The notes below the pieces were generated by a model, which was not told the origin of the DNA, did no database searches, and saw only the letters and a list, made by a program, of their open reading frames with translations. Positions 17,321 to 42,911 of a stretch of DNA of 64,000 bases are shown piece after piece. Where the stretch lies: assembly GCF_003544855.1 (NCBI RefSeq), contig NZ_CP032101.1:2790001-2854000 (forward strand). The letters are read 5' to 3'. A program made the translations under genes and the position numbers. How positions within the stretch are numbered: the stretch's first letter is position 1; every line of letters starts with the position of its first letter. The DNA comes from Malaciobacter marinus. GTDB lineage: Bacteria; Campylobacterota; Campylobacteria; Campylobacterales; Arcobacteraceae.

Positions 17321-18140
17321 ATTAATCTTCTTTATTCTTTTTCTAGCCATAAGTTTGTTATACATCTTAGATGTAAACAAGCTTTTAGGTGAAAAATTTA
17401 CTTTATTTAATAATATAAAAGAGTTTTATATTCATAAAGTAGTAAAAATAACTAACTTCACAGAAAAATACTTTTATCAAGCAAGTACAATTGAAGAACT
17501 AAAACAAGAGAATGAAAAACTAAAAGAGTTTAGACTTCTTTATGAAAGTAAAAATCAAAAACTAACTGATTTAGTAAATAGTATAAAGAAATTAAAACCA
17601 ATAGATGAAAAGCTTATTCAAACAAGAGTTTTATCATATGTTGAGTTTGATGATTTTACAAAAGTTTGGTTAGATAAAGAAAAATTAAATGATCAAATCT
17701 CAGGTTTAGTAATTGATGATTATGCAGCTGGAATAGTAGTTAAAAAAAATGATAAAGCACTTGCATTACTAAATGGAAATGAAAAATCAAATTATGCTGT
17801 ATACATAGGTAAAAATAAAGCCCCTGGAATTACACATAGTATCAAAAAAAGTAAATATATTGTTGCAAAGTATATTCCTATTTGGATTGATATAAATGTA
17901 GGAGATGAAGTAACAACATCAGGAATGGATAATATTTTTTTCAAAGGCTTAAAAGTTGGAAAAGTTGTATCTATAAATAAAATGCCTGATATGCAAGAAG
18001 CCGTTATTGAACCTTATGCAAAAGTCTTAAAAAGAAGATTTTTTTATATTTATACTTCTAAACTTCTACAAAAAGAACAAAAAAATGAAAATGAGACTAT
18101 AAATCTTAAAAAAGAACAAAAAAAGATTAAGAAACAATAG
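17313..18140 (+). CDS. mreC: Rod shape-determining protein MreC
   Basis: 275 residues. One N-terminal membrane anchor (about residues 3-20), a coiled coil (about 55-95: EELKQENEKLKEF), then the periplasmic beta domain with GLVIDDYAAGIVV and GDEVTTSGMDNIFFKGLKVG. Lys/Glu-rich C-terminal tail. Partner of MreB in the elongasome. Its stop overlaps the convergent GMC oxidoreductase gene by 14 bp, so no separate terminator exists between them. No mreD is seen here. Confidence 0.92.
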   Translation: MNKLIFFILFLAISLLYILDVNKLLGEKFTLFNNIKEFYIHKVVKITNFTEKYFYQASTIEELKQENEKLKEFRLLYESKNQKLTDLVNSIKKLKPIDEKLIQTRVLSYVEFDDFTKVWLDKEKLNDQISGLVIDDYAAGIVVKKNDKALALLNGNEKSNYAVYIGKNKAPGITHSIKKSKYIVAKYIPIWIDINVGDEVTTSGMDNIFFKGLKVGKVVSINKMPDMQEAVIEPYAKVLKRRFFYIYTSKLLQKEQKNENETINLKKEQKKIKKQ

Positions 18141-19773: not shown

Positions 19774-20263
19774 CAGTTTTTCCATATTTAACTTTAGGTC
19801 TTGGCTCTCCTGCTTGAAATTTCAAAGATTCATATGCTATTTGATTTTTATTTCCACCATATATAGGATCACTAAGCATTGCTTCTATACCATAATATAT
19901 TAAATAAGATAACCAGTTTTGACCATATGAGTTTTGTGAAACTTGCTTAATAATTCTATTTTTTTCTTCAAGTGAAGCTTTTAAAAATTTAGGAAAAGAT
20001 GAGTTAAAATCTTTTGCACCTTGTAGTAAATAGTTTAAATCATCTTTATCAAAAGTTTTATGATTTATATTTTTCAATAAATAATCAACTGCGCCAAATT
20101 CACTTGCACTTGGCATATGTTTAGTTTTTGGAAAAACTATTTCCAAAACCTCTTCAATCACTGACCATAAAAGAGAATTTTTAGCATCAAATAGCCCTTT
20201 TGCATTTAGCAAAGCTGTTGCACTAAAAAGTGAACTATTTACTAAAAATACTCTTCTGTGCAT
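19763..20263 (-). CDS. Gluconate 2-dehydrogenase subunit 3 family protein with Tat-like leader
   Basis: 166 residues, N-terminus MHRRVFLVNSSLFSATALL, a twin-arginine type leader. The rest fits the PF13618 family (FPKTKHMPSASEFGAVDYL, YGQNWLSYLIYYGIEAML, GGNKNQIAYESLKFQ). In known systems this subunit carries the GMC flavoprotein across the membrane by the Tat route. The start ATG overlaps the ribE stop (TAATG) and the gene overlaps the GMC gene, so all three are co-transcribed. Confidence 0.78.
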   Translation of the reverse strand: MHRRVFLVNSSLFSATALLNAKGLFDAKNSLLWSVIEEVLEIVFPKTKHMPSASEFGAVDYLLKNINHKTFDKDDLNYLLQGAKDFNSSFPKFLKASLEEKNRIIKQVSQNSYGQNWLSYLIYYGIEAMLSDPIYGGNKNQIAYESLKFQAGEPRPKVKYGKTDGL

Positions 20264-21000: not shown

Positions 21001-21053
21001 TTGACAAAAAATCATGATAGTTGTATTATACTACTTCAATAAAAAATCATGAT
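21001..21053 (+). promoter_or_regulatory. Promoter 1 of the AATCATGATT regulon (chemoreceptor)
   Basis: -35 TTGACA 21001-21006, 17-bp spacer, -10 TATTAT 21024-21029. The palindrome core ATCATGAT is in the spacer at 21011-21018 and again at 21046-21053 (35 bp apart). A protein bound there would cover the promoter, as expected for repression. Same layout as at 25770, 34557, 36389, 37217 and 38895. Confidence 0.75.
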
Positions 21054-21075
21054 AATTTTACAAATGGAGCATATT

Positions 21076-23448
21076 ATGTTAAAAAAAATGAGCTTTTCAA
21101 AAAAACTCTTATTTAGTGTTTTAAGTGTTGTTTTTCTATCTTATCTACTTACGACTTTAGTAATAACAACGAAATCGTTTGATAGTGCAGAAAATATTTC
21201 TGAAGAATTATTAATAAATCAAGCAAATGTTGATTTACAAAAAGTAAAACAAGTTCCCGAGAAAGCTGTAGTTGCAGCTTATAGTTTAGCTGCATCTATT
21301 GAAGCCGTTATTCAAACTGGTGTATACTCAGAAGATTCAATTGCAAAAATGGTGTATAACACTTTAGAAAAAAATCCTTATGCTATTGGTGCATGGATTG
21401 GACCTGAACCTGGTAAGATTTTTTCACTTGACTTTACAAGAATATCTGAAAAAAAATATTACAACACAGATGGTAAGTATTGCCCGTTTTTTACTAAATC
21501 TAATAATGGACATATTAAAGTAACTCCAGGTACAGTTGGTCCCAAAGAGAAGAAACCTTGGATTTTTGGACCATATAAAAGTGGTAAAGAGTATATTACT
21601 GAACCTTATATGTACAATGTAGATGGACAAACTCTACTTATGACTACAATTTCAGTACCTATTTATAATAATAAGGAATTTATTGGAGCTGTAGGAATTG
21701 ATATATCTTTAGAGAAAATTGCAGAAGATATTTCTAAAATAAAACTTTATGATACTGGGTATGCTATTTTACTATCTGAAAAAGGTAATATACTAGGACA
21801 CCCTAATAAAGAATTTCTTATGAAAAATATTAAAAAAATATCTTCAAACAAACAAGAGAAATCTCTTCCAGAGAAAATTTCAAATAATGAGTCTTATACA
21901 TTTGATAAAAAAAATGATGCTAATTTAATTTCTCATTTTTATTTAGAACCATTTGAAATCTCAAACACAGGTGTAAATTGGGCTTTATTAATAAATGCTC
22001 CTAAAAATGAGTATCTTCAAGAAGCAACCAATATCAGAATGATATCAATTTTTGGAAGTATCCTTGGCTTTTTAGTAGTATCATTAATAATTATCTATAA
22101 TACAAGAATATTAAATAAAAATCTAAATACGATTACATTAGGATTATCAAATTTCTTTAATTATTTAAATAAACAAACAAGTAATGTAAAAAGAATAGAT
22201 TTAAAAACTCAAGATGAATTTGGAAAAATGGCAAAAGATATTAATAATAATATTGATAAAATTGAAACTAGCCTAATTAAAGACCAAAAGGCAGTTGAAG
22301 ATGTTATTAAAGTCGTTTCAAATATTAATGATGGTGACCTTACAAAAAGAATTGATGCAACTGCTTCAACTCCTGAACTAATTAAACTAACTCAAAATTT
22401 CAATGATATGCTAAATACATTAGAAAAAAAAGTGGGAAAAAATATAAATACTATTCTAGAAGTATTAAATAAGTTTTCAGAATATGATTTTACAAAAGCT
22501 ATTCCAAATGCAAATGCACAAATTGAACAAAGTATCAATAACTTAGGTAAGGAAGTTTCAAACTTATTACAACAATCTTTAGAAGTTGGTTTAACCTTAG
22601 GAAATGCTTCTGATGAATTAAATAATAATGTAAACTTTTTAAATAAAGCATCAAATGAAACTGCCACAAGTTTGGAAGAAACAGCTGCCAGTTTAGAAGA
22701 AATCACGAGTGCTATTGTACACAATAATGAAAATGTTTCTAAAATGAGTATAGCAGCTAATAAACTTGTGGTTTCTGCTAAAGAAGGACAAGATAATGCA
22801 AAAAATACTACTGATTCTATGGATGAGATTACGGCACAAGTATCTTTAATTAATGAATCAATTTCAGTAATTGATCAAATTGCTTTTCAAACAAATATCT
22901 TAAGTTTAAATGCAGCAGTAGAGGCTGCAACTGCAGGAGAAGCAGGAAAAGGTTTCGCAGTTGTTGCACAAGAAGTTAGAAATTTAGCCAATAGAAGTGC
23001 TGATGCAGCAAATGAAATAAAGACTATTGTAGAAAATGCAACTACAAAAGCAAATCATGGTAAAGATATTAGTACTCAAATGATAAAAGGTTATGAAGAA
23101 CTATTAGTAAATATCAATGATGCAACAAATAGAATAAAAGAGATTACAAATGCAAGTAAAGAACAAGAAAGTGGAATAACTCAAATTAATGATGCTATTA
23201 CTCATTTAGATAAACAAACACAAGAGAATGCAAATATTGCAAGTCAAACACAAAATATAGCGAGCCAAACTCATATTATTGCTCGACAAATTATTAAAGA
23301 TACTAACTCAAAAGAGTTTATTGGGAAAACTGAAGTTAAAGCACAAAAAATTAAAAGTAATACTATTCAAAACACCCAAGATATAGAAAAATTACATAAG
23401 AAACATGATAAAAAAATAGAAAAATCTAATGAATGGGAAAGCTTTTAA
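21076..23448 (+). CDS. Methyl-accepting chemotaxis protein with double-Cache sensor (carnitine-regulon member)
   Basis: 790 residues from the ATG at 21076, which has GGAG 6 bases upstream; the frame also opens at 21049, but that ATG lies inside the operator. TM1 about residues 10-30, dCache-type periplasmic domain ([31 protein letters not shown]), TM2 at about 330, HAMP region, methylation helices and the conserved hairpin tip [20 protein letters not shown]. Ends EWESF, resembling the NWETF-type CheR/CheB tether. The shared operator with caiT suggests it senses carnitine or a related quaternary amine; ligand is inferred only. A palindromic terminator covers its stop codon. Confidence 0.88.
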
Positions 23449-23674: not shown

Positions 23675-25549
23675 ATGAACTATGACATTATCGTCGTTGG
23701 AGGCGGACACGCTGGAATAGAAGCTTCACTAGCTAGTGCAAGAATGGGTAAAAAAACTCTTTTAATCACTATGCTAGTTGAACAAATCGGAGCAGCTTCA
23801 TGTAATCCAGCAATTGGAGGACTTGCCAAAGGGCATTTAGTAAGAGAACTAGATGCAATTGGTGGAGAGATGGGACTTTGTACAGATGCAACTGGAATTC
23901 AATTTAGAGTTTTAAATGCTTCAAAAGGTGCAGCAGTACAAGGAAGTCGTGCACAAATTGACATGGATAAATATAGATATTACATGAGAGAAGTATGCCA
24001 CAAAACTGATAATTTAGAAATTTATCAAGACGAAGTAACTTCACTTATATTAGATAAAAATAATGATGTTATTGGAGTAAAAACAAAATTAACAGAAGAA
24101 TTCTTAGCAAAAAAAGTTATTCTTACAACTGGTACTTTTATGAAAGGTCTTATTCATATAGGACAAAACCAGTATGAAGCAGGAAGAGCTTGGGAACTTC
24201 CATCAACAACACTATCTACGCAATTAAAAGAGATGGGATTAAATGTAGGAAGACTAAAAACAGGAACACCTTCAAGAATTGATTCAAATTCTATTGATTT
24301 TTCTGTTATGGAAAAGCATGGAGGTGATGAGAAACCTACACCTTTCTCATTTAGAACAGATAAAAGTAAATTTAATCCTACTCAATATCCATGCTATATT
24401 ACATACACAAATATGGGAACTCACTCAACAATTAGTTCAAACTTTGATAGAGCTCCTTTATTTACAGGACAAATCAAAGGTAATGGACCAAGATATTGCC
24501 CAAGTATTGAAGATAAAGTAAATAGATTTAGTGAAAGAGACAGACATCAACTATTTTTAGAACCTCAAACTGCGATGTGTACAGAATATTATATCAATGG
24601 ACTTAGTACTTCTTTACCTATTGATGTTCAAAAACAAATGGTACATTCAATCAAAGGTTTAGAAAACGCAAAAATTATAAGATATGGATATGCAATTGAG
24701 TATGATTATGTTGATCCAACAGAATTAAAACATACATTAGAAACAAAAAAAGTAAATAATTTATATCTTGCTGGACAAATCAATGCAACAACTGGATATG
24801 AAGAAGCTGCTTCTCAAGGACTAATGGCAAGTATAAATGCATGTTTATCAATTGATAATAAAGAACCTTTAATACTAAGACGAGATGAAGCGTATATTGG
24901 AGTTTTAATCGATGATTTAGTAACTAAAGGAACAAATGAACCTTATAGAATGTTTACAAGTAGAGCAGAATATAGATTACTTTTAAGAGAAGAAACAGCT
25001 GATTTAAGGCTAAGTAAATATGGATATGAACTTGGACTTATTGATGATAAAACTATGTCAAAAATAGAGAATAAAAGAGAAGTAATAAATAATGCAATCT
25101 CTTTTATGGAAAATGAATGGTTTACTTCAAAAAAAGAGAATCTTGAACTTTTATCAAAATTAGGTGAAGATAAAATTAAAGACCGAGCTTTATTGATTGA
25201 TATTGTAGGAAGAAATACAGTAACATCTGAAAAATTTGACGAATTAGTGCCATCACTTAAAGATGTTGAACCATACTTAAAAGAACAAATCATTATTGAA
25301 GCAAAATATTACAGATATGTAAAAAAACAAGAAAAACAGATAGAAAAAATGCAAAAAATGCTTAAATTAAAAATTCCCGAAGATTTTAACTACAATGAAA
25401 TTCCTGGATTATCAAATGAAGTAATAGAAAAACTTCAAAAAGCAAAACCACCTACACTATTCAATGCAAGTGAAATCTCAGGAGTAACACCTGCTGCAAT
25501 TGATGTTTTACATATGTATATGAATGTAAAAAACAAATTCTCAGAATAA
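23675..25549 (+). CDS. mnmG: tRNA uridine-5-carboxymethylaminomethyl modification enzyme MnmG (GidA)
   Basis: 624 residues, usual length. FAD motif GGGHAGIEA at residues 8-16, [34 protein letters not shown], and [16 protein letters not shown] motifs; C-terminal helical domain that binds MnmE and tRNA. With MnmE it modifies the wobble uridine of several tRNAs. ACGGAGAC site before the ATG. Followed by a hairpin terminator. Confidence 0.96.
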
Positions 25550-25769: not shown

Positions 25770-25818
25770 TTGACAATAAATCATGATTAGTGTATCATTT
25801 TCATTAACAAATCATGAT
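25770..25818 (+). promoter_or_regulatory. Promoter 2 of the AATCATGATT regulon (caiTABC)
   Basis: -35 TTGACA 25770-25775, 17-bp spacer, -10 TATCAT 25793-25798. ATCATGAT at 25780-25787 in the spacer and at 25811-25818 near the transcription start (31 bp apart). Confidence 0.78.
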
Positions 25819-25827
25819 TATTTAAAC

Positions 25828-25852
25828 ATCACGATATTTCTAATATCGTGAT
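25828..25852 (+). promoter_or_regulatory. Inverted repeat in the caiT leader
   Basis: ATCACGATAT (25828-25837) and ATATCGTGAT (25843-25852) with a 5-nt loop, about 90 bases before the caiT start. Ten perfect base pairs with no T run, so more likely an RNA stability or regulatory hairpin, or a second operator, than a terminator. Confidence 0.45.
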
Positions 25853-25940: not shown

Positions 25941-27449
25941 ATGGAGACAAAAAAAGTAGGTATTGAGCCTAAGATTTTTTTTCCCTCATTAATTGTAGTT
26001 GTTATTCTTGGTTATTTAGTAGTTCAAGACTTAGATGCTTCAAATGCAATGATTAGTAAAGTTTTTAGTTACATTACTAATAGCTGGGGTTGGGCTTTTG
26101 AATGGTATATGGTTGTATTTGGAATTATTTGGGCTTGGTTAGTTTTTGGTCCAATGAAAAACAATACTTTAGGTGATGAGAAACCTGAATTTAGTACATT
26201 CAGTTGGATTTTCTTAATGTTTGCTTCTTGTACTTCAGCAGCAGTACTTTACTGGGGAACAATTGAAGCTTACTATTATATAGCTTACCCTCCTTTTGCA
26301 AATGAGGCATTTTCTCCTGCTGCAAAAGAGTTTGGATTGGCATATAGTTTATTCCATTGGGGTCCATTACCTTGGGCTGGTTATGCTGTATTGACTGTTG
26401 CTTTTGGTTACTTTATTTGGGTAAAAAAAATCAATGTAATGAGACCAAGTGGTTGTATTGAAGCAACTGTTGGGAAAAAACTTGCAAATGGCTGGTTAGG
26501 AACAATTATTGATAATTTTTATATTGTCGCTCTTATTCTAGCAATGGGTACAAGTTTAGGTTTAGCAACTCCACTTGTAACTGAGTGTATGGAATGGTTA
26601 TTTGGGATTGAAAGAACTTTACAACTTGATACAATGATTATCTCAGCATGGGTAGTTTTTAATGCAATTTGTGTTGCTTTTGGTTTAAATAAAGGTATTA
26701 AAGCTGCAAGTGATATAAGAAGTTATTTAACAATTATTATGCTTGGTTGGGTACTTATTGTAGGGGCTTCTACATTTACAGTTAATTATTTTACAGATTC
26801 TGTTGGTGTTATGTTAGATAGTTTAAGCAGAATGCTTTTTTATACTGATCCTATTAGAGAAGGTGGATTTCCTCAAGGTTGGACAGTATTTTATTGGGCA
26901 TGGTGGGTAACTTTTGGAATCCAAATGTGCATCTTCCTTGCAAGAATTTCAAGAGGTAGAACAGTTAGAGAAATTTGTTTAAATATGGTTGCTGGACTTA
27001 CTCTTACTACATGGGCAATGTGGACAATTTTAGGAAGTAATACAGTTAATGTAATGATTAAAGGTTTAGCAAATTTACCTGAAATTGCTAAAACTGAAGG
27101 TATTCCAAGAGCTATTATTGAAACATGGGCTTCGCTTCCATTTGCAACAATCACTATTTGGGGATTTTTTATTCTTTGCTTTATTGCAACAGTTACATTA
27201 ATTAATGCTTGTTCATATACTCTTGCAATGTCTACTTGTAAAGAAGCCTCAGGTTATAGTGAACCTCCGTTATGGGTAAGAATTGGTTGGTCATTAATCG
27301 TTGGAATTATTGGTGTTACACTTTTAGCACTTGGAGGATTAAAACCACTTCAAACTGCAATTATTGCTGGTGGTTGTCCACTATTCTTTGTAAATATCTT
27401 GATTTTAGTCTCTTTCTTTAAAGATTCCAAGAAAAATAAATGGTATTAA
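25941..27449 (+). CDS. caiT: L-carnitine/gamma-butyrobetaine antiporter CaiT
   Basis: 502 residues from the ATG at 25941 (GGAGG 7 bases upstream); the frame extends to a GTG at 25848 inside the leader hairpin, which is rejected. BCCT family, 12 TM. It reads colinear with E. coli CaiT (as recalled) from GIEPKIFFP to the C-terminus. Key residues are kept: Y112, W140 and W145 of the substrate aromatic box, and R260 in ASDIRSYL, matching the Arg262 that makes E. coli CaiT sodium-independent. It should exchange external carnitine for internal gamma-butyrobetaine. First gene of caiTABC-hydratase, under promoter 2. Confidence 0.95.
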
Positions 27450-27482: not shown

Positions 27483-28619
27483 ATGATTAGTTTTAAATTA
27501 ACTGATGAACAAGAACTTTTTGTTGATGGTGTAAAAGAATTAATGGAAAGAGAAAATTGGGAAGCTTATTTTGCCCAATGTGATGAGAAGCATGAATATC
27601 CAATTAAATGGGTAAAAGAGTTAGCCGAACTTGGTATTGATACTATGCTTTTACCAGAAGAGCATGGAGGAATGGGTGAATCTATGGTTACACTTGCTGC
27701 TATTTGGGAAGAGTTAGGAAGACATGGTGCACCTACTTATATCTTATATCAGTTGCCAGGATTTAGTACTATTTTAAGACATGGTACGCAAGAACAAATT
27801 GATAAAATCTTTGAATTTAGAGGAACGGGTGAACAAATGTTTAACTCTGCAATTACAGAACCAAGTGCAGGGTCAGATGTTGGAAGTTTACAAACAACTT
27901 ATAAAAGAGAGAATGGAAAGGTTTATTTAAACGGTCAAAAATGCTTTATTACAAGTAGTTTACATACTCCATATTTAATTGTTATGGCAAAAGATGCAAA
28001 TAGTGAAAAACCTATTTTCTCTGAATGGTTTATTGATATGAAAAAAGCAGGCATTAAATTAACTCCTTTAGAAAAACTAGGTCTTAGAATGGATAGTTGT
28101 TGTGAAGTTGTTTTTAATAATGTTGAATTAGAAGAAAAAGATATGTTTGGAGCTGAGGGTGAAGGTTTCAATAGAGTTAAAGCTGAATTTGATGATGAGA
28201 GATTTTTAGTTGCTTGCACAAACTATGGTGTTGCATTATGTGCATTTGAAGATGCTGCAAAATATGCAAACCAAAGAGTTCAATTTGGAGAAGCAATTGG
28301 TAGAACTCAATTAATCCAAGAAAAATTTGCAAATATGGCAATTAAACTTAACTCAATGAAAAATATGATTTTTGAAACTGCATGGAAAACTGATGAAGGA
28401 ATAGCAACTTCAGGTGATTCTGCAATGTGCAAATACTATTGTGCGAATGCAGCATTTGAAGTTATTGATACATCAATGCAAGTTCTTGGTGGTATTGGAG
28501 TAACAGGTCATAGAGTTGGAAGATTTTGGAGAGACTTAAGAATTGATAGACTTTCTGGTGGTTCTGATGAAATGCAAATCTTAACATTAGGACGACAAGT
28601 TCTAAAAAAATATAGATAA
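27483..28619 (+). CDS. caiA: Crotonobetainyl-CoA reductase CaiA
   Basis: 378 residues (E. coli CaiA 380). Acyl-CoA dehydrogenase fold: [37 protein letters not shown] for FAD and substrate contacts, [21 protein letters not shown], and C-terminal [15 protein letters not shown]. In enterobacteria it reduces crotonobetainyl-CoA to gamma-butyrobetainyl-CoA using electrons from the FixABCX flavoproteins. 33 bp after caiT with AAAGGAACAT site. Confidence 0.95.
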
Positions 28620-28631
28620 GCAAGGAAAATT

Positions 28632-29846
28632 ATGTCAAATAAAATACAAACACCTAAATTTGGTCCACTTTCTGGAATGAAAGTGGTTTTTTCTGCAATT
28701 GAGATTGCAGGTCCCTTTTCAGCACAAATGTTTGCTGAGTGGGGAGCAGAAGTGATTTGGATTGAACATTCTGCGTATCCTGATACGATTAGAGTGCAAG
28801 AAAATTATCCTGAGTTATCAAGAAGAAATCTTCATGCATTATCTTTGAATGTATTTTCAGAAGAAGGAAGAGAAGTATTTTTAAAACTAATAGAAGATGC
28901 TGATGTATTTATTGAAGCTAGTAAAGGTCCTGCTTTTGCTAAAAGAGGTATTACAGATGAACTTTTATGGGAAAAAAATAAAAAATTAGTAATTGGGCAC
29001 TTATCTGGTTTTGGTCAATACGGTACAGAAGAGTACACACATTTAGCAGCATATAATACAATTGCTCAAGCTTTTAGTGGTTATTTAATGCAAAATGGAG
29101 ATGTTGATCAGCCAATGCCAGCATTTCCATATACAGCTGATTATATGGCAGGATTTGCTGTAACTAGTTCTGTTTTAGCTGCAGTTTATAATGCAGAAAA
29201 AACAGGTATTGGTGAAAGTATTGATGTTGCTATGTATGAAGTAATGTTAAGAGTTGGTCAATATTACATGATGGACTACTTAAACGGTGGTGAAATGTGT
29301 CCTAGAATGATTAAAGGGAAAGACCCTCTATACGCTGGTTGTGGATTATATAAATGTAATGACGGATATATCGTATTTGAAGTAGTTGGAGGAAATCAAG
29401 TTAAAGAGATTTTTAATCTACTTGGTATTTCAGAATACATTGGTACAGAAGAAATTCCAGAAGGTACTCAACTTATTTCAAGAAAGATGTCAGCATCACA
29501 ACTTTTTGAAGATAAATTAGATGAGTACTTTGAAGCACTAACAATTGAAGAAGCATTAGCCTTACTTGCAAAATATAAAATTGCTGGAGCAAAAGTTCTT
29601 GATGCTCATGAACTTCAATCAAATCCACAATATATTGCAAGAGATTCATTTACTCAATGGGAATCAATGGAAGGTAAAAAAGTAACAGGTCCTAATGTAA
29701 TGCCTAAGTTTAAAAATAACCCAGGGAAAATCTGGAGAGCAAAACCATCTTACGGAATGGATACTAAAGGTATTTTAAATGAGCTTGGTTACTCAGAAGA
29801 TAGCATTAATGAATTAGCAAAGAATAAAATTATTAATATAGGATAA
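28632..29846 (+). CDS. caiB: L-carnitine CoA-transferase CaiB
   Basis: 404 residues (E. coli 405), class III CoA-transferase. Conserved from [20 protein letters not shown]; catalytic aspartate D170 in FPYTADY matches E. coli Asp169. Moves CoA from gamma-butyrobetainyl-CoA or crotonobetainyl-CoA to carnitine, so activation costs no ATP in the steady cycle. 12 bp after caiA. Confidence 0.95.
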
Positions 29847-29867: not shown

Positions 29868-31433
29868 ATGGATATTATTGAACAAAAAAGTGTAGGACAA
29901 TTATGGGATCATTTAGCAAAGCAATATGGTTTAAAAACTGCTTTAATTTTTGAGGATATAAACGCAAATACATATAAATATTCATACTTAAAAATGAATG
30001 AGAACATAAACAAAACAGCAAATCTATTCCTTAGCTTAGGAGTAAGAAAAGGAGATAGAGTTGCATTACATATTAATAATTGTCCAGAACTTTTGTTCAG
30101 TTGGTTTGCCCTTTGTAAAATAGGAGCCATTATGGTTCCTATTAATGCACACTATTTATATAATGAGACATCATACATAATAAATAAATGTAAACCAAAA
30201 ATTGTTGTTACAGAAGAAATATTTTTAGATGTTTACAAACGAATAATTAAAGATTCAAAATGTACTATAGAAAATATTTTAATTGCAAGAGTAGAAGATA
30301 AGAGTTTTGATAATTTCATCAATTTTAACAATTCGTATAAAAAACAAAGTACTTCCCTACTTAATAAAGTTGAAATTAATAATCAAGATACAACAGAAAT
30401 TTTATTTACTTCTGGAACGACATCATTACCAAAAGGTGTAGTAATTAGCCACTACAATCTATTATTTGCTGGACATTATACATCATGGCAATGTCAACTA
30501 TCAGAAAATGATATTTATATGACAGTTATGCCTGCATGGCATATTGACTTCCAATGTACTGCTGCTATGCCAACATTTAGCTCAGGTGCAACACTTGTAT
30601 TGTTAGAAAAATATAGTGCAAGAAAATTTTGGAATCAAGTATGTAGTTATAAAGCTACAATCACTGAATGTATTCCAAAAATTATTTGTACTTTACTTCT
30701 TCAGCCTAAAAAAGCATGGGAAAGAAACCATTGCTTAAGAGAAGTATTTTATTATTTAACATTACCTACAAAAGACAAAGATGCATTCATCGATAGATTT
30801 AACGTAAAACTATTAACATCATATGGAATGACTGAAACAATAGTTGGTCTTATTGGAGATCGTCCCCACGATAAAAGAAAATGGCCATCAATTGGAAAAG
30901 TAGGTTTTTCATATGAAGTGAAAATTATAAATGAAAACAATGAAGAAGTAACTCCTAATACTATTGGCGAAATTTATATAAAAGGTATACCAGGAAAGAC
31001 TATTTTTAATGGATACTATCAAGATGAAAATGAAACAAAAAAAGTTTTAAATAACAATGGATGGTTTCATACTGGTGATACAGGATATGTCGATGAAGAA
31101 GGTTATTTTTATTTTGTAGATAGAAAGTCAAACCTTATAAAAAGCGCTGGAGAGAATGTTTCGGCTAGTGAAATCGAAACCCTTTTATCTTCCCATCCTA
31201 AAATACTCGAAAGTGCAGTAATTGGAGTCACTGATAAAATATGCTGTGAATTAATCAAAGCATTTGTTGTGTTAAAAAATAGTGAAGTTTTAACAGAAAA
31301 TGAAATTATAGATTATTGTCAAAAATATCTAGCAGATTTTAAGATCCCTAGTAAAGTTGAAATCTGCGATAGTCTTCCTAAAACATGTTTAGGAAAACTA
31401 AAAAAAGATGTATTAAGACAATCTTGTTGTTAA
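29868..31433 (+). CDS. caiC: Carnitine/crotonobetaine-CoA ligase CaiC
   Basis: 521 residues, AMP-forming acyl-CoA synthetase. P-loop-like TEILFTSGTTSLPKGVV, LLTSYGMTETIVGLIGDRP, GWFHTGDTGYVDEEGY, and the C-terminal catalytic Lys in TCLGKLKKDVL. Colinear with enterobacterial CaiC as recalled. Supplies the first betainyl-CoA that primes the CaiB cycle. The hydratase gene follows after 13 bp; in E. coli this slot holds caiD. Confidence 0.93.
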   Translation: MDIIEQKSVGQLWDHLAKQYGLKTALIFEDINANTYKYSYLKMNENINKTANLFLSLGVRKGDRVALHINNCPELLFSWFALCKIGAIMVPINAHYLYNETSYIINKCKPKIVVTEEIFLDVYKRIIKDSKCTIENILIARVEDKSFDNFINFNNSYKKQSTSLLNKVEINNQDTTEILFTSGTTSLPKGVVISHYNLLFAGHYTSWQCQLSENDIYMTVMPAWHIDFQCTAAMPTFSSGATLVLLEKYSARKFWNQVCSYKATITECIPKIICTLLLQPKKAWERNHCLREVFYYLTLPTKDKDAFIDRFNVKLLTSYGMTETIVGLIGDRPHDKRKWPSIGKVGFSYEVKIINENNEEVTPNTIGEIYIKGIPGKTIFNGYYQDENETKKVLNNNGWFHTGDTGYVDEEGYFYFVDRKSNLIKSAGENVSASEIETLLSSHPKILESAVIGVTDKICCELIKAFVVLKNSEVLTENEIIDYCQKYLADFKIPSKVEICDSLPKTCLGKLKKDVLRQSCC

Positions 31434-32303
31434 AAGGAGAAAGAAGATGGCAATAAAAACAGAGATGGTAGGACAAACATTTGGTCCTTTCCAAAGAGAT
31501 TATGACTGGAAATCATTAAGTTTATTTGCACTTGGAAGTGGTGCAGCATTTGATGGTAAAACTGGATTAAAATATGTTTATGAAAAAAATATGAAAATGC
31601 TTCCTACTTTTGGTGCAATGCCTATTGTTGATGCTGAAGTTACTAAAACTATTGATTGGGGTTATGATTATTCTGGTTCTTTACACTGGAGTTTTGATGT
31701 TAAATTTCATAATCCTATGAAAAAGCTTGAAGGTAAATTAAGTACTAAAGTTTTATTAAAAGGTTTATATGACAGAGGTGAAGGTAGAGGTACTCTAGCT
31801 CAACATATTGGTGAAACTTATGATGATGATGGCACTTTACTTTTCACTTGTGAAAGTTGGGATTGTTGTATATTTGATGGTGGTTGGGATGGTCCTAAAG
31901 CTCCTAAAGATATTGTTGAAATCCCTGAGAGAAAACCTGATTTTGAAGTTACTGAAAAAATTGCTGAAAATAGAGCTTTAATTTATAGACTTTCTGGTGA
32001 TACTCATCCTCAACATGTTGATTGGGATTATGCCCAAGAAGTTGGTTATCCTAAACCTAATTGCCATGCTGTTAGTACTGCTGGTGTTGCTTGTAGACAT
32101 ATCATTGATACTATTTTAGATGGTGATAGTGATAGATTAACAAGATTCAAAACAAGAATTACTAAACCTCTTTTCCCTGGTTGTACTGTTAAAACTCAAA
32201 TCTGGAAATGGGATGATAACTCTATTAGATTTAGAGTTATTGATGCTAATGACCCAGACATGATCTATTTTAACTTCGCTCTTGCTGAGTGGAAATAATT
32301 TAA
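31431..32303. repeat. 873-bp perfect direct repeat, copy 1 (partner 38999-39871)
   Basis: Read base by base, this block is identical to 38999-39871 (offset 7568). It runs from 16 bases before the hydratase ATG, including its ribosome-binding site, to 5 bases after the stop. The flanks differ immediately outside. No terminal inverted repeats or transposase are present. Confidence 0.9.
31447..32298 (+). CDS. Hydratase-2/MaoC-type enoyl-CoA hydratase, copy 1 (candidate CaiD replacement)
   Basis: 283 residues with two hotdog domains, as in eukaryotic MFE-2 hydratase 2 and bacterial MaoC-like enzymes. The C-terminal domain carries the hydratase-2 motif YRLSGDTHPQHVDWDYA with catalytic D185 and H190; the usual Asn is His187. 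Followed by GYPKPNCHAVSTAGVACRHI. Unusually rich in Trp and Tyr near the active site (W138, W147, W193), which could bind a trimethylammonium group. Its position after caiC suggests it interconverts crotonobetainyl-CoA and carnitinyl-CoA in place of crotonase-fold CaiD. Ends the caiTABC unit; terminator follows. Confidence 0.8.
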   Translation: MAIKTEMVGQTFGPFQRDYDWKSLSLFALGSGAAFDGKTGLKYVYEKNMKMLPTFGAMPIVDAEVTKTIDWGYDYSGSLHWSFDVKFHNPMKKLEGKLSTKVLLKGLYDRGEGRGTLAQHIGETYDDDGTLLFTCESWDCCIFDGGWDGPKAPKDIVEIPERKPDFEVTEKIAENRALIYRLSGDTHPQHVDWDYAQEVGYPKPNCHAVSTAGVACRHIIDTILDGDSDRLTRFKTRITKPLFPGCTVKTQIWKWDDNSIRFRVIDANDPDMIYFNFALAEWK

Positions 32304-34556: not shown

Positions 34557-34585
34557 TTGACAAAAAATCATGATTTCTATATAAT
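34557..34585 (+). promoter_or_regulatory. Promoter 3 of the AATCATGATT regulon (second symporter unit)
   Basis: -35 TTGACA 34557-34562, 17-bp spacer, -10 TATAAT 34580-34585, both perfect consensus. ATCATGAT at 34567-34574 in the spacer. No second copy downstream. Confidence 0.78.
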
Positions 34586-34749: not shown

Positions 34750-34756
34750 GCTCTTA

Positions 34757-36388: not shown

Positions 36389-36417
36389 TTGATTTATAAT
36401 CATGATTATATTTTATA
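36389..36417 (+). promoter_or_regulatory. Promoter/operator 4 of the AATCATGATT regulon (TetR gene)
   Basis: -35-like TTGATT 36389-36394 and the palindrome core ATCATGAT at 36399-36406, the same 10-base offset as in the other five sites. The -10 is less clear (TTTATA at 36412 or TATATA at 36414). A weaker promoter with one operator fits autoregulation. Confidence 0.65.
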
Positions 36418-36466
36418 TAAGTAAAAAAAATTATCATTAATTAAATTTTAAAGGAGATTGAAAACT

Positions 36467-37177
36467 TTGGAACAAAAAGAAAAAAGAGTAAAAATTAAGC
36501 AAGAAAGAATAATGAAATATTTCATAGAATCAGCAGAAGAGATAATCCAAAAAGAAGGAATTGAATCTGTTACAATTAGAAAAACTGCTGACTTAGCGGG
36601 GTATACAAGTGCTACCTTATATAACTATTTTGATAATCTAACACACCTTATTTTTTTAGCAACTATGAACCATCTTGAAAATTATAACAAACATCTATAT
36701 AAAAGTGTAGCTAATTGTAAAAATTCTATTGAAGTATATATGTCAGTATGTTTATGCTTTAGTGAACATGCATATAGTGAACCTGACATATTTGAATTAC
36801 TATTCTTTTCCCAAGATAGAGAAAAATTTGAAGAGTACACTAATCAATATTATGAATTATATCCAAGTAAAGAGAAAGAGACTCCACAATTTTTAAATAC
36901 AATGTATCATTTAAATAATATCTATTCAAGAAGTTTTACAATGCTTGACAACTGTATTAAAGATGGATATTTAAATGAAGAAAATGCAAATGATTTTAAT
37001 GATATTTGTTTAAGATTTACAAAAACCATAATAGAAGATGTAAAAAAAGACAATATGACAAAAGCTGAAGCAATTCAAATAACAATGAAGTATTATTATC
37101 AACTTTTTGGCTTCTACTTAAAACCAAAATATAAGCATATATTAGAAGATTATTATAAGAAATTAATGAAAAAGTAA
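36467..37177 (+). CDS. TetR-family transcriptional regulator of the carnitine region
   Basis: 236 residues. Two TTG codons are possible; the one at 36467 (LEQKEKRVKIKQ) is chosen since AAGGAG at 36451-36456 is 10 bases away, whereas the TTG at 36458 is only 1 base from it. HTH at about residues 25-50 (SVTIRKTADLAGYTSATLYNYF). The C-terminal ligand domain is not specific. It sits in the middle of the regulon and has an operator in its own promoter, so it is the best candidate for the AATCATGATT-binding repressor. E. coli uses the unrelated activator CaiF instead. Inducer unknown, perhaps carnitine or a CoA ester. Confidence 0.82.
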   Translation: MEQKEKRVKIKQERIMKYFIESAEEIIQKEGIESVTIRKTADLAGYTSATLYNYFDNLTHLIFLATMNHLENYNKHLYKSVANCKNSIEVYMSVCLCFSEHAYSEPDIFELLFFSQDREKFEEYTNQYYELYPSKEKETPQFLNTMYHLNNIYSRSFTMLDNCIKDGYLNEENANDFNDICLRFTKTIIEDVKKDNMTKAEAIQITMKYYYQLFGFYLKPKYKHILEDYYKKLMKK

Positions 37178-37216: not shown

Positions 37217-37269
37217 TTGACAAGTAATCATGATAATTATATAATACATACAAAAAATAAAATCATGAT
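37217..37269 (+). promoter_or_regulatory. Promoter 5 of the AATCATGATT regulon (esterase-ribA)
   Basis: -35 TTGACA 37217-37222, 17-bp spacer, -10 TATAAT 37240-37245. ATCATGAT at 37227-37234 and 37262-37269 (35 bp apart). The second copy ends 14 bases before the esterase ATG. Confidence 0.78.
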
Positions 37270-37283
37270 TATAGGTTAGAATA

Positions 37284-38237
37284 ATGAATAAAATCAACAT
37301 TAACAATTACATTACAAAACAGATGAAAGAAGTTCTTGACTATCAAGAAGAGTTTGCTAAAAATAATCCCTCTATTTCAAATAGTATTGAAGAAGGAAGA
37401 GAAAACTATATAAAAGAAAGAGCATACTGGAATGAAAACAATCTTGAGTTAAAAGAAGAAAAAAGAGTTATTCAAGGAGAATATGGAGATATAACTTTAC
37501 ATATTTATTATCCAAATAACAATAATAATCTAAACTGTACTTTATTTATACATGGTGGTGGCTTTATAGTTGGTAGCCCTAAAACACATGAAAGAATGAT
37601 AAAATATTTTTCTAAACATAGTAAAAGCATAGTTGTAGCAATTGACTATAAACTATCTCCTGAGTATAAATATCCAATAGCAATACAAGAGTGTGCATTT
37701 ATTGCAAACTATTTACATAAAAATGCACAAGAATTTAATATAAATAAAAATAGTATATCACTTATGGGTGATTCTGCTGGTGCTAATATTGCTTTTAATA
37801 CAAATCTTTATTTAAGAGATGAATATAAAGATAATTCATATATAAAAACAATGATTTTATATTATGGAATTTATGGGCTTAACGACTCTACCTCAAGAAG
37901 ACTATTAGGAAATAAACATGACTCTTTAACAAAAGAGGATATTGAATTTTATGAAGCTTGTTACTTTAAAGATGATGAAATACAGAAAAAATATTATGAT
38001 TGTTTAAATGCTGATTTATCTTATTCGATTCCACCAACTTACATGTGTGTGGGAAACCTTGACCCTTTATTAGATGATAGTATAACATTGAAAGAGATCT
38101 TAGAGTTAAATGGAACTACTTGTGAACTTCAAATATTTAAAGGAGTTATGCATGCTTTTTTACACTATACAAAAATTATGCCAGAAGCAAATAAAGCTTT
38201 AAAAAATAGTGCAAATTTTTTTAAAAATAATCAATAA
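37284..38237 (+). CDS. Alpha/beta hydrolase, HSL-type carboxylesterase
   Basis: 317 residues. Oxyanion motif HGGGF (90-94), nucleophile S164 in GDSAGAN, acid in VGNLDPLLDD and catalytic His in GVMHAFLHY: a full triad of the hormone-sensitive-lipase family. Cytoplasmic (no leader). Its place under the carnitine-type promoter suggests an esterase that frees carnitine from acylcarnitines, but this is inference from context. Overlaps the frame upstream of ribA and is co-transcribed with it. Confidence 0.85.
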   Translation: MNKININNYITKQMKEVLDYQEEFAKNNPSISNSIEEGRENYIKERAYWNENNLELKEEKRVIQGEYGDITLHIYYPNNNNNLNCTLFIHGGGFIVGSPKTHERMIKYFSKHSKSIVVAIDYKLSPEYKYPIAIQECAFIANYLHKNAQEFNINKNSISLMGDSAGANIAFNTNLYLRDEYKDNSYIKTMILYYGIYGLNDSTSRRLLGNKHDSLTKEDIEFYEACYFKDDEIQKKYYDCLNADLSYSIPPTYMCVGNLDPLLDDSITLKEILELNGTTCELQIFKGVMHAFLHYTKIMPEANKALKNSANFFKNNQ

Positions 38238-38247
38238 AGGACTCAAG

Positions 38248-38811
38248 ATGAATATTAAAATATCAAATATAGCAAAACTTCCTTCAAAATATGGAGACTT
38301 CAAGATTCAATCTTTTAAAGATAAAGATAAAGAGCATTTAGTAATATTTAAAGAACCCATTTTGGATAATACTTTACTTCGTATTCATAGTGAATGCCTA
38401 ACTGGAGATGCTCTTGGTTCCTTAAAATGTGATTGCCAAGCACAGCTTCATCATGCATTACAATTAATTTCAAAAGAAAATGGAATGGTAATATATTTAA
38501 GACAAGAAGGCAGAGGCATAGGTTTATTTAATAAAGTTAATGCTTATGAACTTCAAGATAGAGGATTTAATACAATTGAAGCTAATCATCAATTAGGATT
38601 TGAAACTGATTTAAGAGACTATAAAATTGTTGAATATATATTAAACTACTATAAAATAAAAAAAATTAATTTGATAACTAACAATCCAAATAAAATAAAT
38701 TCTTTAAAAAATTTTGAAATTTTACAAAGAATTCCTTCAATTACACCTACAAATAAACACAATCAAAACTATTTAGAAATAAAAAAAGAATCTTTAGGGC
38801 ATTTTTTATAA
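38248..38811 (+). CDS. ribA: GTP cyclohydrolase II RibA
   Basis: 187 residues from the ATG at 38248 (AAAGGA upstream); the frame extends to 38209 inside the esterase gene, which is rejected. Zinc site C-x10-C-x-C in ECLTGDALGSLKCDCQAQ, RQEGRGIGLFNK, and NHQLGFETDLRDY. First step of riboflavin synthesis. Stand-alone RibA rather than a RibBA fusion. Placed with the esterase under promoter 5; extra flavin would serve CaiA and FixABC. A separate housekeeping copy elsewhere cannot be judged. Confidence 0.92.
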   Translation: MNIKISNIAKLPSKYGDFKIQSFKDKDKEHLVIFKEPILDNTLLRIHSECLTGDALGSLKCDCQAQLHHALQLISKENGMVIYLRQEGRGIGLFNKVNAYELQDRGFNTIEANHQLGFETDLRDYKIVEYILNYYKIKKINLITNNPNKINSLKNFEILQRIPSITPTNKHNQNYLEIKKESLGHFL

Positions 38812-38894: not shown

Positions 38895-38946
38895 TTGACA
38901 ATAAATCATGATTATTGTATTATTTTGATTATAAAAAAATCATGAT
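38895..38946 (+). promoter_or_regulatory. Promoter 6 of the AATCATGATT regulon (hydratase-fixABCX)
   Basis: -35 TTGACA 38895-38900, 17-bp spacer, -10 TATTAT 38918-38923. ATCATGAT at 38905-38912 and 38939-38946 (34 bp apart). Confidence 0.78.
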
Positions 38947-38998: not shown

Positions 38999-39871
38999 TA
39001 AAAGGAGAAAGAAGATGGCAATAAAAACAGAGATGGTAGGACAAACATTTGGTCCTTTCCAAAGAGATTATGACTGGAAATCATTAAGTTTATTTGCACT
39101 TGGAAGTGGTGCAGCATTTGATGGTAAAACTGGATTAAAATATGTTTATGAAAAAAATATGAAAATGCTTCCTACTTTTGGTGCAATGCCTATTGTTGAT
39201 GCTGAAGTTACTAAAACTATTGATTGGGGTTATGATTATTCTGGTTCTTTACACTGGAGTTTTGATGTTAAATTTCATAATCCTATGAAAAAGCTTGAAG
39301 GTAAATTAAGTACTAAAGTTTTATTAAAAGGTTTATATGACAGAGGTGAAGGTAGAGGTACTCTAGCTCAACATATTGGTGAAACTTATGATGATGATGG
39401 CACTTTACTTTTCACTTGTGAAAGTTGGGATTGTTGTATATTTGATGGTGGTTGGGATGGTCCTAAAGCTCCTAAAGATATTGTTGAAATCCCTGAGAGA
39501 AAACCTGATTTTGAAGTTACTGAAAAAATTGCTGAAAATAGAGCTTTAATTTATAGACTTTCTGGTGATACTCATCCTCAACATGTTGATTGGGATTATG
39601 CCCAAGAAGTTGGTTATCCTAAACCTAATTGCCATGCTGTTAGTACTGCTGGTGTTGCTTGTAGACATATCATTGATACTATTTTAGATGGTGATAGTGA
39701 TAGATTAACAAGATTCAAAACAAGAATTACTAAACCTCTTTTCCCTGGTTGTACTGTTAAAACTCAAATCTGGAAATGGGATGATAACTCTATTAGATTT
39801 AGAGTTATTGATGCTAATGACCCAGACATGATCTATTTTAACTTCGCTCTTGCTGAGTGGAAATAATTTAA
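38999..39871. repeat. 873-bp perfect direct repeat, copy 2 (partner 31431-32303)
   Basis: Identical to copy 1 at every base I compared, covering ribosome-binding site, hydratase gene and the five bases after its stop. Being a long direct repeat, it could by recombination delete or amplify the 7.6 kb between the copies. Confidence 0.9.
39015..39866 (+). CDS. Hydratase-2/MaoC-type enoyl-CoA hydratase, copy 2
   Basis: Same 283-residue protein as at 31447, without a single difference, including the D185/H190 hydratase-2 motif. Here it is the first gene of the fix operon, 22 bp before fixA, under its own regulon promoter. Two copies in two operons may raise dosage of the step that feeds crotonobetainyl-CoA to CaiA. 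A different acyl-CoA substrate cannot be excluded. Confidence 0.8.
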   Translation: MAIKTEMVGQTFGPFQRDYDWKSLSLFALGSGAAFDGKTGLKYVYEKNMKMLPTFGAMPIVDAEVTKTIDWGYDYSGSLHWSFDVKFHNPMKKLEGKLSTKVLLKGLYDRGEGRGTLAQHIGETYDDDGTLLFTCESWDCCIFDGGWDGPKAPKDIVEIPERKPDFEVTEKIAENRALIYRLSGDTHPQHVDWDYAQEVGYPKPNCHAVSTAGVACRHIIDTILDGDSDRLTRFKTRITKPLFPGCTVKTQIWKWDDNSIRFRVIDANDPDMIYFNFALAEWK

Positions 39872-39888
39872 AAAATAAAGGAGAATAA

Positions 39889-40647
39889 ATGAAAATTTTA
39901 GTTGGTTGCAAATTAGTACCAGAAGATCAAGATATTGTGGTTCAAAATGATGGAACTTTAGATACGAGCAAAGCTGCTCCAAAAATTAGTCAGTTTGATT
40001 TAAATGCTATTCAAACAGCAGTAGATATAAAAAAAGAGAATGCTAATGCAACAATTACTGCATTAAGTGTTGGTGGTAAAAAACTTGAAAATGTAAAAGT
40101 TAGAAAAGATATGCTTTCTAGAGGTTTAGATGAACTTGTAGTGGTTACTAATGAAAAATACGAAAATATATTACCACATCAAACATCAAAAATCTTAAGT
40201 GAAGTAGCAAAAGAACAAGGTTTTGATTTAATAATATGTGGAGATGGTTCAGGTGATTTATATGCACAACAAACAGGTATAAAACTTGGTGCATTATTAG
40301 ATGTTCCTACTGTAAATGGAATTAGTGAAATTGTTTCAATTGATGAAAATAAAATAATTGCAAAAAGAGCTTTAGAAAATGAAGTAGAAGTACTAGAAGT
40401 TCCTCTTCCAGCAGTTATTTGTGTATCTGCTGATATTAATGAACCTTCAATTCCTGGAATGAAAGCTATCTTAGCAGCAGGGAAAAAACCTGTAAATGTT
40501 AAAGAAGTTGTAGTTGAAGATTCAGCTTTAGTTGATTTAGTTGAGATTAAAGCTCCTAAGAAAAAAGAAAGAGCACATATTATTATTGAAGGTGATAGTG
40601 AAGATCAAATCGCTGAATTTGTAAACAATTTAAGAAAAATTATTTAA
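39889..40647 (+). CDS. fixA: Electron transfer flavoprotein beta-type subunit FixA
   Basis: 252 residues. ETF-beta fold; starts MKILVGCKLVPEDQDI, contains AITALSVGGK-like and CGDGSGDLYAQQTGIKLG, VNGISEIV, IPGMKAIL, matching the carnitine-linked FixA of enterobacteria. Forms a heterodimer with FixB. AAAGGAG before the ATG. In E. coli fixABCX is divergent from caiTABCDE; here it is 7 kb downstream on the same strand. Confidence 0.95.
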   Translation: MKILVGCKLVPEDQDIVVQNDGTLDTSKAAPKISQFDLNAIQTAVDIKKENANATITALSVGGKKLENVKVRKDMLSRGLDELVVVTNEKYENILPHQTSKILSEVAKEQGFDLIICGDGSGDLYAQQTGIKLGALLDVPTVNGISEIVSIDENKIIAKRALENEVEVLEVPLPAVICVSADINEPSIPGMKAILAAGKKPVNVKEVVVEDSALVDLVEIKAPKKKERAHIIIEGDSEDQIAEFVNNLRKII

Positions 40648-40661
40648 GTAAAGGAATTTTT

Positions 40662-41600
40662 ATGAGCAAGTTATCTAATGTATGGGTTTTTAGTGATACT
40701 TATTCAAGATTAGCAGAAGTTATATCTGGTGGATTAGAATTAGGTGAAAATGTAAAAGCGATTGTTCTTACTGAGGATGAGAGTAAAGAAGCATTTGCTT
40801 ATGGAGCAAATGAAGTATTTTTAATTGAGAATAGTGACTCAAAGAATATTGTTGAGAACTACTCAAAATCAATTGCTAAAGTAATTATGAATGAAGGAAA
40901 ATCTTTAATTTTAATGCCAGGAACAAAAAGATGCAAATCATTGGCATCTTTATTAAGTATTGAATTAGAAGCAGGTCTAGTAACTGAAGTATCTGAGATT
41001 AATATTGAGAATAATAACATAAATTGTAGACATATGGTTTATGGTGGTTTAGCAAATGGCTTAGAAACTATTACAAGTGAAGCTTCTATTGCAGTAATCG
41101 CTAGTGGTACTTTTGAAAATATACAAAAAGATGAAAGTAAAACAGGAGAAGCTCAAAAAGTTGATTTTGTAGAGAATAAAAACTCAATAAAATGCATTGA
41201 AAAAACTTCAAAAGAAGGAAGTAGTGTTGATTTAAATAAAGCGAAAAGCATAGTTGCTATTGGTAGAGGTATTTCAAAACAAGAAGATATTTCATTAGCA
41301 GAAGAGTTATGTAAAGTTATGGATGCAGAACTTGGTTGTTCAAGACCTATTGCTGAGGGTGAAAAATGGATGGAACATGAAAGATATATTGGTATCTCAA
41401 GTGTTATGGCAAAACCCGAAATTTATGTAGCAATTGGTATTTCTGGACAAATTCAACATATGGTTGGTGCAAAAGATTCACAAACTATCATTGCTATTAA
41501 CAAAGATAAAAATGCTCCTATTTTTGATTATGCAGACTATGGAATAGTTGGAGATTTATATACTGTTTTACCTGCAGTAACAAAAGCACTTAAAGGGTAA
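40662..41600 (+). CDS. fixB: Electron transfer flavoprotein alpha-type subunit FixB
   Basis: 312 residues (E. coli 313). ETF-alpha: C-terminal FAD domain with SIVAIGRGIS, AELGCSRPIAEGEKW, YVAIGISGQIQHMVGAKDSQTIIAINKD. Works with FixA to pass electrons toward CaiA and may bifurcate electrons from NADH between quinone and a low-potential acceptor. 14 bp after fixA. Confidence 0.95.
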   Translation: MSKLSNVWVFSDTYSRLAEVISGGLELGENVKAIVLTEDESKEAFAYGANEVFLIENSDSKNIVENYSKSIAKVIMNEGKSLILMPGTKRCKSLASLLSIELEAGLVTEVSEINIENNNINCRHMVYGGLANGLETITSEASIAVIASGTFENIQKDESKTGEAQKVDFVENKNSIKCIEKTSKEGSSVDLNKAKSIVAIGRGISKQEDISLAEELCKVMDAELGCSRPIAEGEKWMEHERYIGISSVMAKPEIYVAIGISGQIQHMVGAKDSQTIIAINKDKNAPIFDYADYGIVGDLYTVLPAVTKALKG

Positions 41601-41624
41601 TAAAAAAAATATTTGAGGTGATTT

Positions 41625-42911
41625 ATGTCTGAAGATAAATTTGACGCGATAATTGTAGGAGGAGGATTAGCAGGTTGTATCACAGCATACATGCTTGCTA
41701 ATGCTGGATTAGAGACTCTTTTAATTGAAAAAGGGAACTTCTCTGGTTCTAAAAATATGACAGGAGGAAGATTATATGCTCATAGTATTGAGAAAATCTT
41801 CCCTGATTTTGCTAATGAAGCACCAATTGAGAGATCTATTGTTCATGAAAAAATATCTTTTATGAATGATGATAGTTGTGTAACTATGGATTACTCTACT
41901 AAAGAAGCTTCTAATAATGAAGATAAATCTTATACTGTTTTAAGAGCAAAATTTGATGAATGGTTAGCACAAAAAGCCGAAGAAGCAGGTGTTGGAATAA
42001 TCCCAGGGATTAGAGTAGATGACCTAATTGTAAGAGATAATAAAGTTTGTGGTGTAATCGCAGGTGGCGAAGAAATGGAAGCTGATGTAGTTATTCTTGC
42101 AGATGGAGTTAACTCTATTTTAGGAGAAAAGATAGGTATGGTTTCTAAAGTAACACCTCATCACTGTGCAGTAGGTGCGAAAGAAGTAATCAAACTATCA
42201 AAACAACAAATCAATGATAGATTTGCTTGTACAGATAAAGAGGGAACTGCTTGGCTTTTTGCAGGAATGCCATCTGATGGATATATGGGTGGAGGATTTA
42301 TTTACACAAATGAAGAAAGTATCTCTTTAGGTGTTGTATTTGGACTTCATAATATTGAAAAAGCGAGCAAAAGTATCCCTCAAATGTTAGAAGACTTTAA
42401 AAACCATCCAACTATTAAACCTTTAGTTGAAGGTGGAGAAATATTAGAGTACTCAGCTCATGTAGTTCCAGAAGGTGGATTACATATGCTTCCAGAAATG
42501 GTAAGAGATGGAGTAGTAATTGTTGGTGATGCAGCAGGACTTTGTTTGAATGTAGGATATACAGTAAGAGGGATGGATTTAGCTATTGCTTCGGGAGAAG
42601 CAGCGGCAAATGCAATTATTGAAGCTAATAAAAAAAGTGACTTTTCTAAAAACACTTTAAATAAATATGTACAAAATTTAGAAGATAGCTTCGTTATGAA
42701 AGATTTAAAACTTTATAAAGAGCTTCCTCAATTTTTAGATAATGAAAGAATGTTTAATGATTATCCTGACATGGTATCAGGAATTATGAAAGATATGTTC
42801 ACAATTAATGGTCCTAGTGTACCTATGAGAAAAATGATTATGCCTCATCTTAAAAAAGTAGGTTTTATGAACTTACTTAAAGATGGATTTAAAGGAGTAA
42901 AATCAATATGA
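41625..42911 (+). CDS. fixC: Flavoprotein-ubiquinone oxidoreductase-like FixC
   Basis: 428 residues, same as E. coli FixC. FAD motif GGGLAGCITAYMLANAG, GSKNMTGGRLYAHS, GDAAGLCLNVGYTVRGMDLAI. Resembles ETF:quinone oxidoreductase but its 4Fe-4S partner is the separate FixX. Overlaps fixX by 4 bp. Confidence 0.95.
   Translation: MSEDKFDAIIVGGGLAGCITAYMLANAGLETLLIEKGNFSGSKNMTGGRLYAHSIEKIFPDFANEAPIERSIVHEKISFMNDDSCVTMDYSTKEASNNEDKSYTVLRAKFDEWLAQKAEEAGVGIIPGIRVDDLIVRDNKVCGVIAGGEEMEADVVILADGVNSILGEKIGMVSKVTPHHCAVGAKEVIKLSKQQINDRFACTDKEGTAWLFAGMPSDGYMGGGFIYTNEESISLGVVFGLHNIEKASKSIPQMLEDFKNHPTIKPLVEGGEILEYSAHVVPEGGLHMLPEMVRDGVVIVGDAAGLCLNVGYTVRGMDLAIASGEAAANAIIEANKKSDFSKNTLNKYVQNLEDSFVMKDLKLYKELPQFLDNERMFNDYPDMVSGIMKDMFTINGPSVPMRKMIMPHLKKVGFMNLLKDGFKGVKSI

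Follow-up and report, generated by a model that had tools for sequence, protein, structure and literature searches.

A chemoreceptor gene of Malaciobacter marinus shares its promoter and operator with genes for carnitine reduction

Why would a chemoreceptor gene carry the promoter and operator of a carnitine transporter gene when a housekeeping gene separates the two? This arrangement occurs in a 64,000-nucleotide stretch of the Malaciobacter marinus genome (contig NZ_CP032101.1, positions 2,790,001 to 2,854,000; here called the window, in which position 1 is the first letter), with mnmG lying between the receptor gene MCP1 and caiT. We analyzed the operator across this genome and its relatives, the regulator that may read it, and the sensor domain of the receptor (Table 1).

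Table 1. Features of the carnitine cluster and of the two receptor genes in the window
Feature	Position	Strand	Basis or remark
MCP1 promoter TTGACA-N17-TATTAT, spacer holding operator 1 ATCATGAT (21011-21018)	21001..21029	+	Pattern match
MCP1 operator 2 ATCATGAT, between -10 and start codon	21046..21053	+	Kept in M. halophilus and a Halarcobacter MAG
MCP1 chemoreceptor, 790 aa, dCache_1 + HAMP + MCPsignal	21076..23448	+	Pfam PF02743, PF22673, PF00672, PF00015
mnmG, housekeeping, between MCP1 and caiT	23675..25549	+	Sequence reading; 80-92% homologues in 15/15 genomes searched
caiT promoter, octamers at 25780 and 25811, variants ATCACGAT (25828) and ATCGTGAT (25845)	25770..25852	+	Pattern match
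caiT, L-carnitine/gamma-butyrobetaine antiporter	25941..27449	+	NF002887, 833.8 bits (cut-off 541)
caiA, crotonobetainyl-CoA reductase	27483..28619	+	NF002885
caiB, carnitine CoA-transferase	28632..29846	+	NF002914
caiC, carnitine/crotonobetaine-CoA ligase	29868..31433	+	NF005947
MaoC/hydratase-2 family protein, copy 1	31447..32298	+	PF01575, PF22622
Single operator, promoter of second SSS symporter (34757-36358)	34567..34574	+	Octamer; symporter PF00474
Single operator upstream of tetR	36399..36406	+	Octamer; also before M. halophilus tetR
TetR-family regulator, proposed regulon repressor	36458..37177	+	PF00440; in the same 4/104 genomes as caiT
Promoter with operator pair (37227, 37262), acyl hydrolase-ribA operon	37217..37269	+	Pair pattern
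Alpha/beta hydrolase, acetyl-esterase-like	37284..38237	+	PF07859; regulon member
ribA, GTP cyclohydrolase II (flavin supply)	38209..38811	+	NF001591, TIGR00505
Promoter with operator pair (38905, 38939), MaoC-fixABC operon	38895..38946	+	Pair pattern
MaoC copy 2, fixA, fixB, fixC	39015..42911	+	fixA NF002888; MaoC by identity
MCP2, similar dCache receptor without operator	45758..48133	+	Pfam domains; no upstream octamer

The operator and the genes that carry it

The dCache_1, HAMP and MCPsignal domains of MCP1 all score above their curated cut-offs, as in dCache_1 methyl-accepting chemotaxis proteins. Translation starts at the ATG at 21076, which follows a GGAG and is common to two orthologues; the 10 residues after this ATG are also kept in both. 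The listed open reading frame begins at 21049, an improbable start given that operator 2 runs across this position and that the GGAG ribosome site would then fall within the frame. A GMC oxidoreductase gene and that of a partner protein (18127-20263) adjoin MCP1 and ribE, and the slot lacks them in several relatives.

As the initial annotation claimed, MCP1 has the promoter and operator of caiT despite the intervening mnmG. At both promoters, the octamer ATCATGAT and the element TTGACA-N17-TAT[T/C]AT stand in identical register (octamers at 21011 and 21046 for MCP1, and at 25780 and 25811 for caiT), and the two promoters, 4.8 kb apart, have 74% identity across a 66-nt stretch. The second MCP1 octamer lies 35 bp downstream of the first, and the spacing in operator pairs varies between 31 and 36 bp. 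The first octamers fall between -35 and -10 and the second ones downstream of -10, a geometry that would suit repression. The caiT leader (25780-25852) contains four octamers, the last three stepped by 17 bp; in another family, one genome (L103) has similar arrays of 17-bp period upstream of fixA. Such arrays suggest cooperative TetR binding.

Genome-wide, the pair pattern AATCATGAT-N18-32-AATCATGAT was found at only four promoters in 2.92 Mb, those of MCP1, caiT, the acyl hydrolase-ribA operon (37227/37262) and the MaoC hydratase-fixABC operon (38905/38939), and a reversed-pattern control gave no matches. The last two pairs had been overlooked in the initial annotation. The stricter pattern of promoter plus operator has five genomic sites, all within the cai cluster of the window, and 10 of the 30 octamer sites in the genome fall in this 18-kb cluster (binomial P = 2e-15), including single octamers before the second SSS symporter gene (34567) and tetR (36399). 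Across the 29 MCP loci, no promoter other than that of MCP1 bears an octamer site. A search upstream of MCP2 (45758) found no octamer, which bears out the earlier statement that the second receptor lacks the operator.

The CaiT, CaiA, CaiB and CaiC equivalogs, which together denote carnitine reduction, and FixA all score above their NCBIfam cut-offs. The fixB and fixC genes were named by sequence reading and by their conserved order beside fixA; FixABC transfers electrons to CaiA. The two MaoC genes (31447-32298 and 39015-39866) are identical at 852 of 852 bases and belong to separate operons of the same regulon, which suggests recent duplication or gene conversion, and their products likely replace CaiD. 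The hydrolase encoded at 37284-38237 is a possible O-acylcarnitine esterase. An unrelated GDSL hydrolase (L062, 14018-14896) is its counterpart in the same regulon of a Halarcobacter genome (G065), and the esterase role is possibly filled from two hydrolase families. The cluster also includes panD (34135-34500; aspartate decarboxylase, for a CoA precursor) and ribA (for a flavin precursor), and ribB-type genes have nearby octamers in G065 and in another cai genome, G067. The carnitine regulon may thus include cofactor supply. Two mutually similar tiny open reading frames (32388-32518 and 34631-34750) each directly precede an SSS symporter gene and may encode small subunits.

The protein that binds the octamers is very probably the TetR-family regulator at 36458. 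It scores 30.0 bits against PF00440 (cut-off 24), and its structural model (pLDDT 91) matches TetR folds. We rejected a BetI-like choline repressor (28.6 bits on TIGR03384, whose cut-off is 201.3): the regulator shares the TetR DNA-binding domain with the choline-sensing BetI, but its BetI and KstR profile matches are weak, and the BetI match is confined to the N-terminal half. Fold matches were led by DarR and acyl-CoA-type FadR and FasR at a TM score of about 0.5, which is too weak to read an inducer from the FadR/FasR matches. Control by CaiF was rejected as well, CaiF being absent: PF07180 had no match in the four cai genomes, and the Escherichia coli positive control was detected. The cai cluster of G067 has two TetR paralogues (L059, 7456-8166 and 9850-10587).

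Conservation among relatives

Among 104 family genomes, the four that encode TetR are precisely the four that encode CaiT, and the strict promoter-plus-operator pattern occurs in 3 of these 4 and in no other. We found an MCP1 orthologue (79 to 93% sensor identity; next best, 42%) only in the window genome, in G078, taken as Malaciobacter halophilus, and in G065, taken as Halarcobacter MAG Pyr_d60_bin5. This amounts to three of the four cai genomes versus none of the 100 others (Fisher P = 2e-5, calculated without tree correction and with only three MCP1-bearing genomes). A scan for receptor relatives in the named genomes returned two loci only.

The operator pair before the MCP1 orthologue is kept in both relatives. 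Between G065 and the window, 15 of the 16 octamer bases are conserved, versus 77% for the remaining promoter and leader, and the sole octamer change yields ATCGTGAT, a variant present at other regulon sites. In G065, MCP1 occupies the slot between ribE and mnmG on contig C2, with the cai genes elsewhere, on contig C4; the shared operator therefore cannot be put down to close linkage. The same slot holds no receptor in cai-less Malaciobacter (G079 to G082) and several other genomes, and in the cai-less G091 and G088 it holds same-family receptors without the operator. In G067, the fourth cai genome, the slot is also without a receptor, and a different dCache receptor (36% sensor identity) lies inside the cai cluster; its promoter has only one exact octamer, downstream of -10. 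The receptor tree leaves this protein unplaced, which makes independent recruitment likely but not forced. An MCP2 orthologue (78% identity) is present in the cai-less G082, so MCP2 is not tied to cai.

Paired octamers were absent from 9 of 10 cai-less control genomes, and the tenth has a single match that resembles coding sequence. The octamer pair in the cai-less G091 was rejected as a promoter, since it reads as a His/Asp-rich coding repeat. In another family of the same order, five genomes have TetR beside cai or fix genes, and three of these have octamer arrays around their cai genes; the stretches from G227 and G266 stop short of the cluster front. Because the operator is unique to these promoters genome-wide, is conserved across genera, is kept before a receptor gene that one genome has unlinked from cai and is missing from cai-less genomes, the placement of MCP1 under shared control with caiT is strongly supported at the sequence level. 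The cell probably makes MCP1 only during carnitine use.

The sensor domain and competing explanations

The AlphaFold model of MCP1 residues 32 to 315 (pLDDT 91.8) matches the Methanosarcina mazei amine-type sensors, MkcA, TlpQ, PctD, McpX and PacA at Z scores of 26 to 29, versus about 20 for the amino acid receptors PctA to PctC. Foldseek agrees with this ranking, which also holds Campylobacter jejuni Tlp1 and Helicobacter pylori TlpA at a Z score of about 26. By sequence, the best PDB match is McpX (1.3e-21). In the pocket, the aromatic residues F138, W162 and Y180 correspond to W155, F188 and Y206 of the PctD motif (PMC10104139), D209 and M189 correspond to D235 and the hydrophobic M215, and Thr191 is a conservative change from S217. 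The charged pair R103-D133 above the PctD pocket is replaced by Glu86 and Phe116, and an equivalent of Y189 is absent from the alignment to PctD. In PctD, the R103A substitution lowers choline affinity 363-fold (PMC10104139). With this defining part of the dCache_1AM motif missing, we did not file MCP1 as a member of that group; it may still work like one.

The pocket residues did not provide proof of the ligand. Similar residues occur across the receptor family, including MCP2 and receptors of cai-less species, so the pocket aromatics do not single out carnitine, and by sequence MCP2 and the whole Arcobacteraceae receptor family also group with amine receptors. PacA binds L-carnitine with a KD of 20 uM, while for PctD calorimetry detected no carnitine binding and the response was weak (PMC9040839). 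Carnitine binding is thus within the reach of dCache sensors of this kind. The fold thus points to an amine-type sensor, and it is the regulon, not the pocket, that would direct attention to carnitine. The initial annotation had proposed a carnitine-regulon receptor for carnitine, betaine or choline. Its regulatory half has strong support from the unique operator, its conservation, the wiring in trans and the lack of the operator in cai-less genomes; its ligand half seems plausible from sequence and model, but the amine motif is incomplete and by sequence the second receptor groups likewise. We put a betaine of the carnitine pathway slightly ahead of even as the MCP1 ligand.

The chief competitor, which we regard as unlikely but worth weighing, keeps MCP1 in the carnitine regulon and has it sense a companion of carnitine use, such as an amino or organic acid or something released when acylcarnitine is hydrolyzed. 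The sensor resembles the amino acid dCache motif as well, through the conserved Trp162, Tyr178 and Asp209 and the Lys two positions ahead of Trp162; the strict amine motif is incomplete, and other Arcobacteraceae have receptors with this pocket but no cai genes. Gene context can also mislead on the ligand, as the case of NbaY shows: placed by context with nitrobenzoate, it was reported not to bind this compound (PMC6600141). Against a companion compound, both fold and sequence put the MCP1 sensor with the amine receptors, ahead of PctA to PctC, and membership in the regulon favors a substrate of the pathway.

Two other explanations concern the operator itself. MCP1 and the cai genes could be co-regulated by something other than carnitine if another regulator, for instance a redox or global one, read the octamers. 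The G065 tetR gene, with no exact octamer just upstream, would fit this idea, which we nevertheless consider improbable: operator pairs, TetR and CaiT have one phyletic pattern, both the window and M. halophilus have an octamer before tetR, and a global regulator would show sites elsewhere in the genome. Least probable by far is that the MCP1 operator is a functionless relic of a caiT promoter duplication, or mere chance. The proximity and likeness of the two promoters speak for a relic, but the identity is limited to 74% over the 66 nt, the operator persists in a second genus despite the separation of MCP1 from the cai genes there, and G067 has a second receptor with an operator; by chance, only about 1e-6 octamer pairs are expected in the 122 bp before MCP1.

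A regulon that may include its own sensor

We favor a model in which the TetR protein would bind the paired ATCATGAT sites overlapping the MCP1, caiT, hydrolase-ribA and hydratase-fixABC promoters and keep all of them off. Carnitine or a pathway intermediate (e.g., betainyl-CoA) would release the repressor, and both the machinery for reducing carnitine to gamma-butyrobetaine and the periplasmic sensor MCP1 would then be made. MCP1 would bind a quaternary-amine betaine (carnitine, crotonobetaine, gamma-butyrobetaine or a related compound) and bias swimming along its gradient, presumably toward the source. As a whole, from repressor to betaine-guided movement, this model seems to us reasonably probable.

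Receptors tied to catabolic genes and dCache receptors for quaternary amines are both known. McpX of Sinorhizobium meliloti, PctD of Pseudomonas aeruginosa and PacA of Pectobacterium atrosepticum resemble MCP1 in their dCache_1 sensor with a membrane-distal aromatic pocket and an Asp (PMC9040839, PMC10104139). MCP1 is about 21 to 24% identical to them and lacks their Arg-Asp pair above the pocket. We know of no carnitine-repressor control for these three. Like MCP1, NahY (on a naphthalene plasmid), PcaY and NbaY are receptors whose genes are tied to the pathway of their supposed substrate (PMC6600141). Their pathways concern aromatic carbon sources, whereas that of MCP1 concerns an electron acceptor. 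The wiring also differs from what is known of theirs, with an operator that is shared in trans and is kept when the genes are unlinked.

The enterobacterial cai/fix system, which is under the activator CaiF (PMC2131755), has the caiTABC and fix equivalogs in common with the window. It differs in that the window has no CaiF, a proposed TetR repressor and a MaoC hydratase instead of CaiD, and in that the regulon here spans several promoters and includes a chemoreceptor, ribA and an acyl hydrolase. What appears to be new is a TetR-type carnitine regulon with a chemoreceptor and with wiring that is kept when the genes are unlinked; the literature searched yielded neither this nor any case of a carnitine regulator controlling a chemoreceptor.

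The carnitine regulon described here departs from the CaiF paradigm. To our knowledge, most chemoreceptors have no known ligand, and an operator common in trans to a dedicated pathway provides a sharp, testable ligand prediction for 1 of 29 receptors. Tentatively, a TetR-controlled regulon for carnitine as an electron acceptor could have recruited chemoreceptors on two or more occasions, MCP1 in Malaciobacter and Halarcobacter and another dCache receptor in G067, for substrate-induced taxis to a terminal electron acceptor, with MCP1 possibly a dedicated sensor of carnitine, crotonobetaine or gamma-butyrobetaine whose pocket lies off the known amine motif. If this is true, these bacteria hold back induction of an electron-acceptor sensor until they have the means to use that acceptor.
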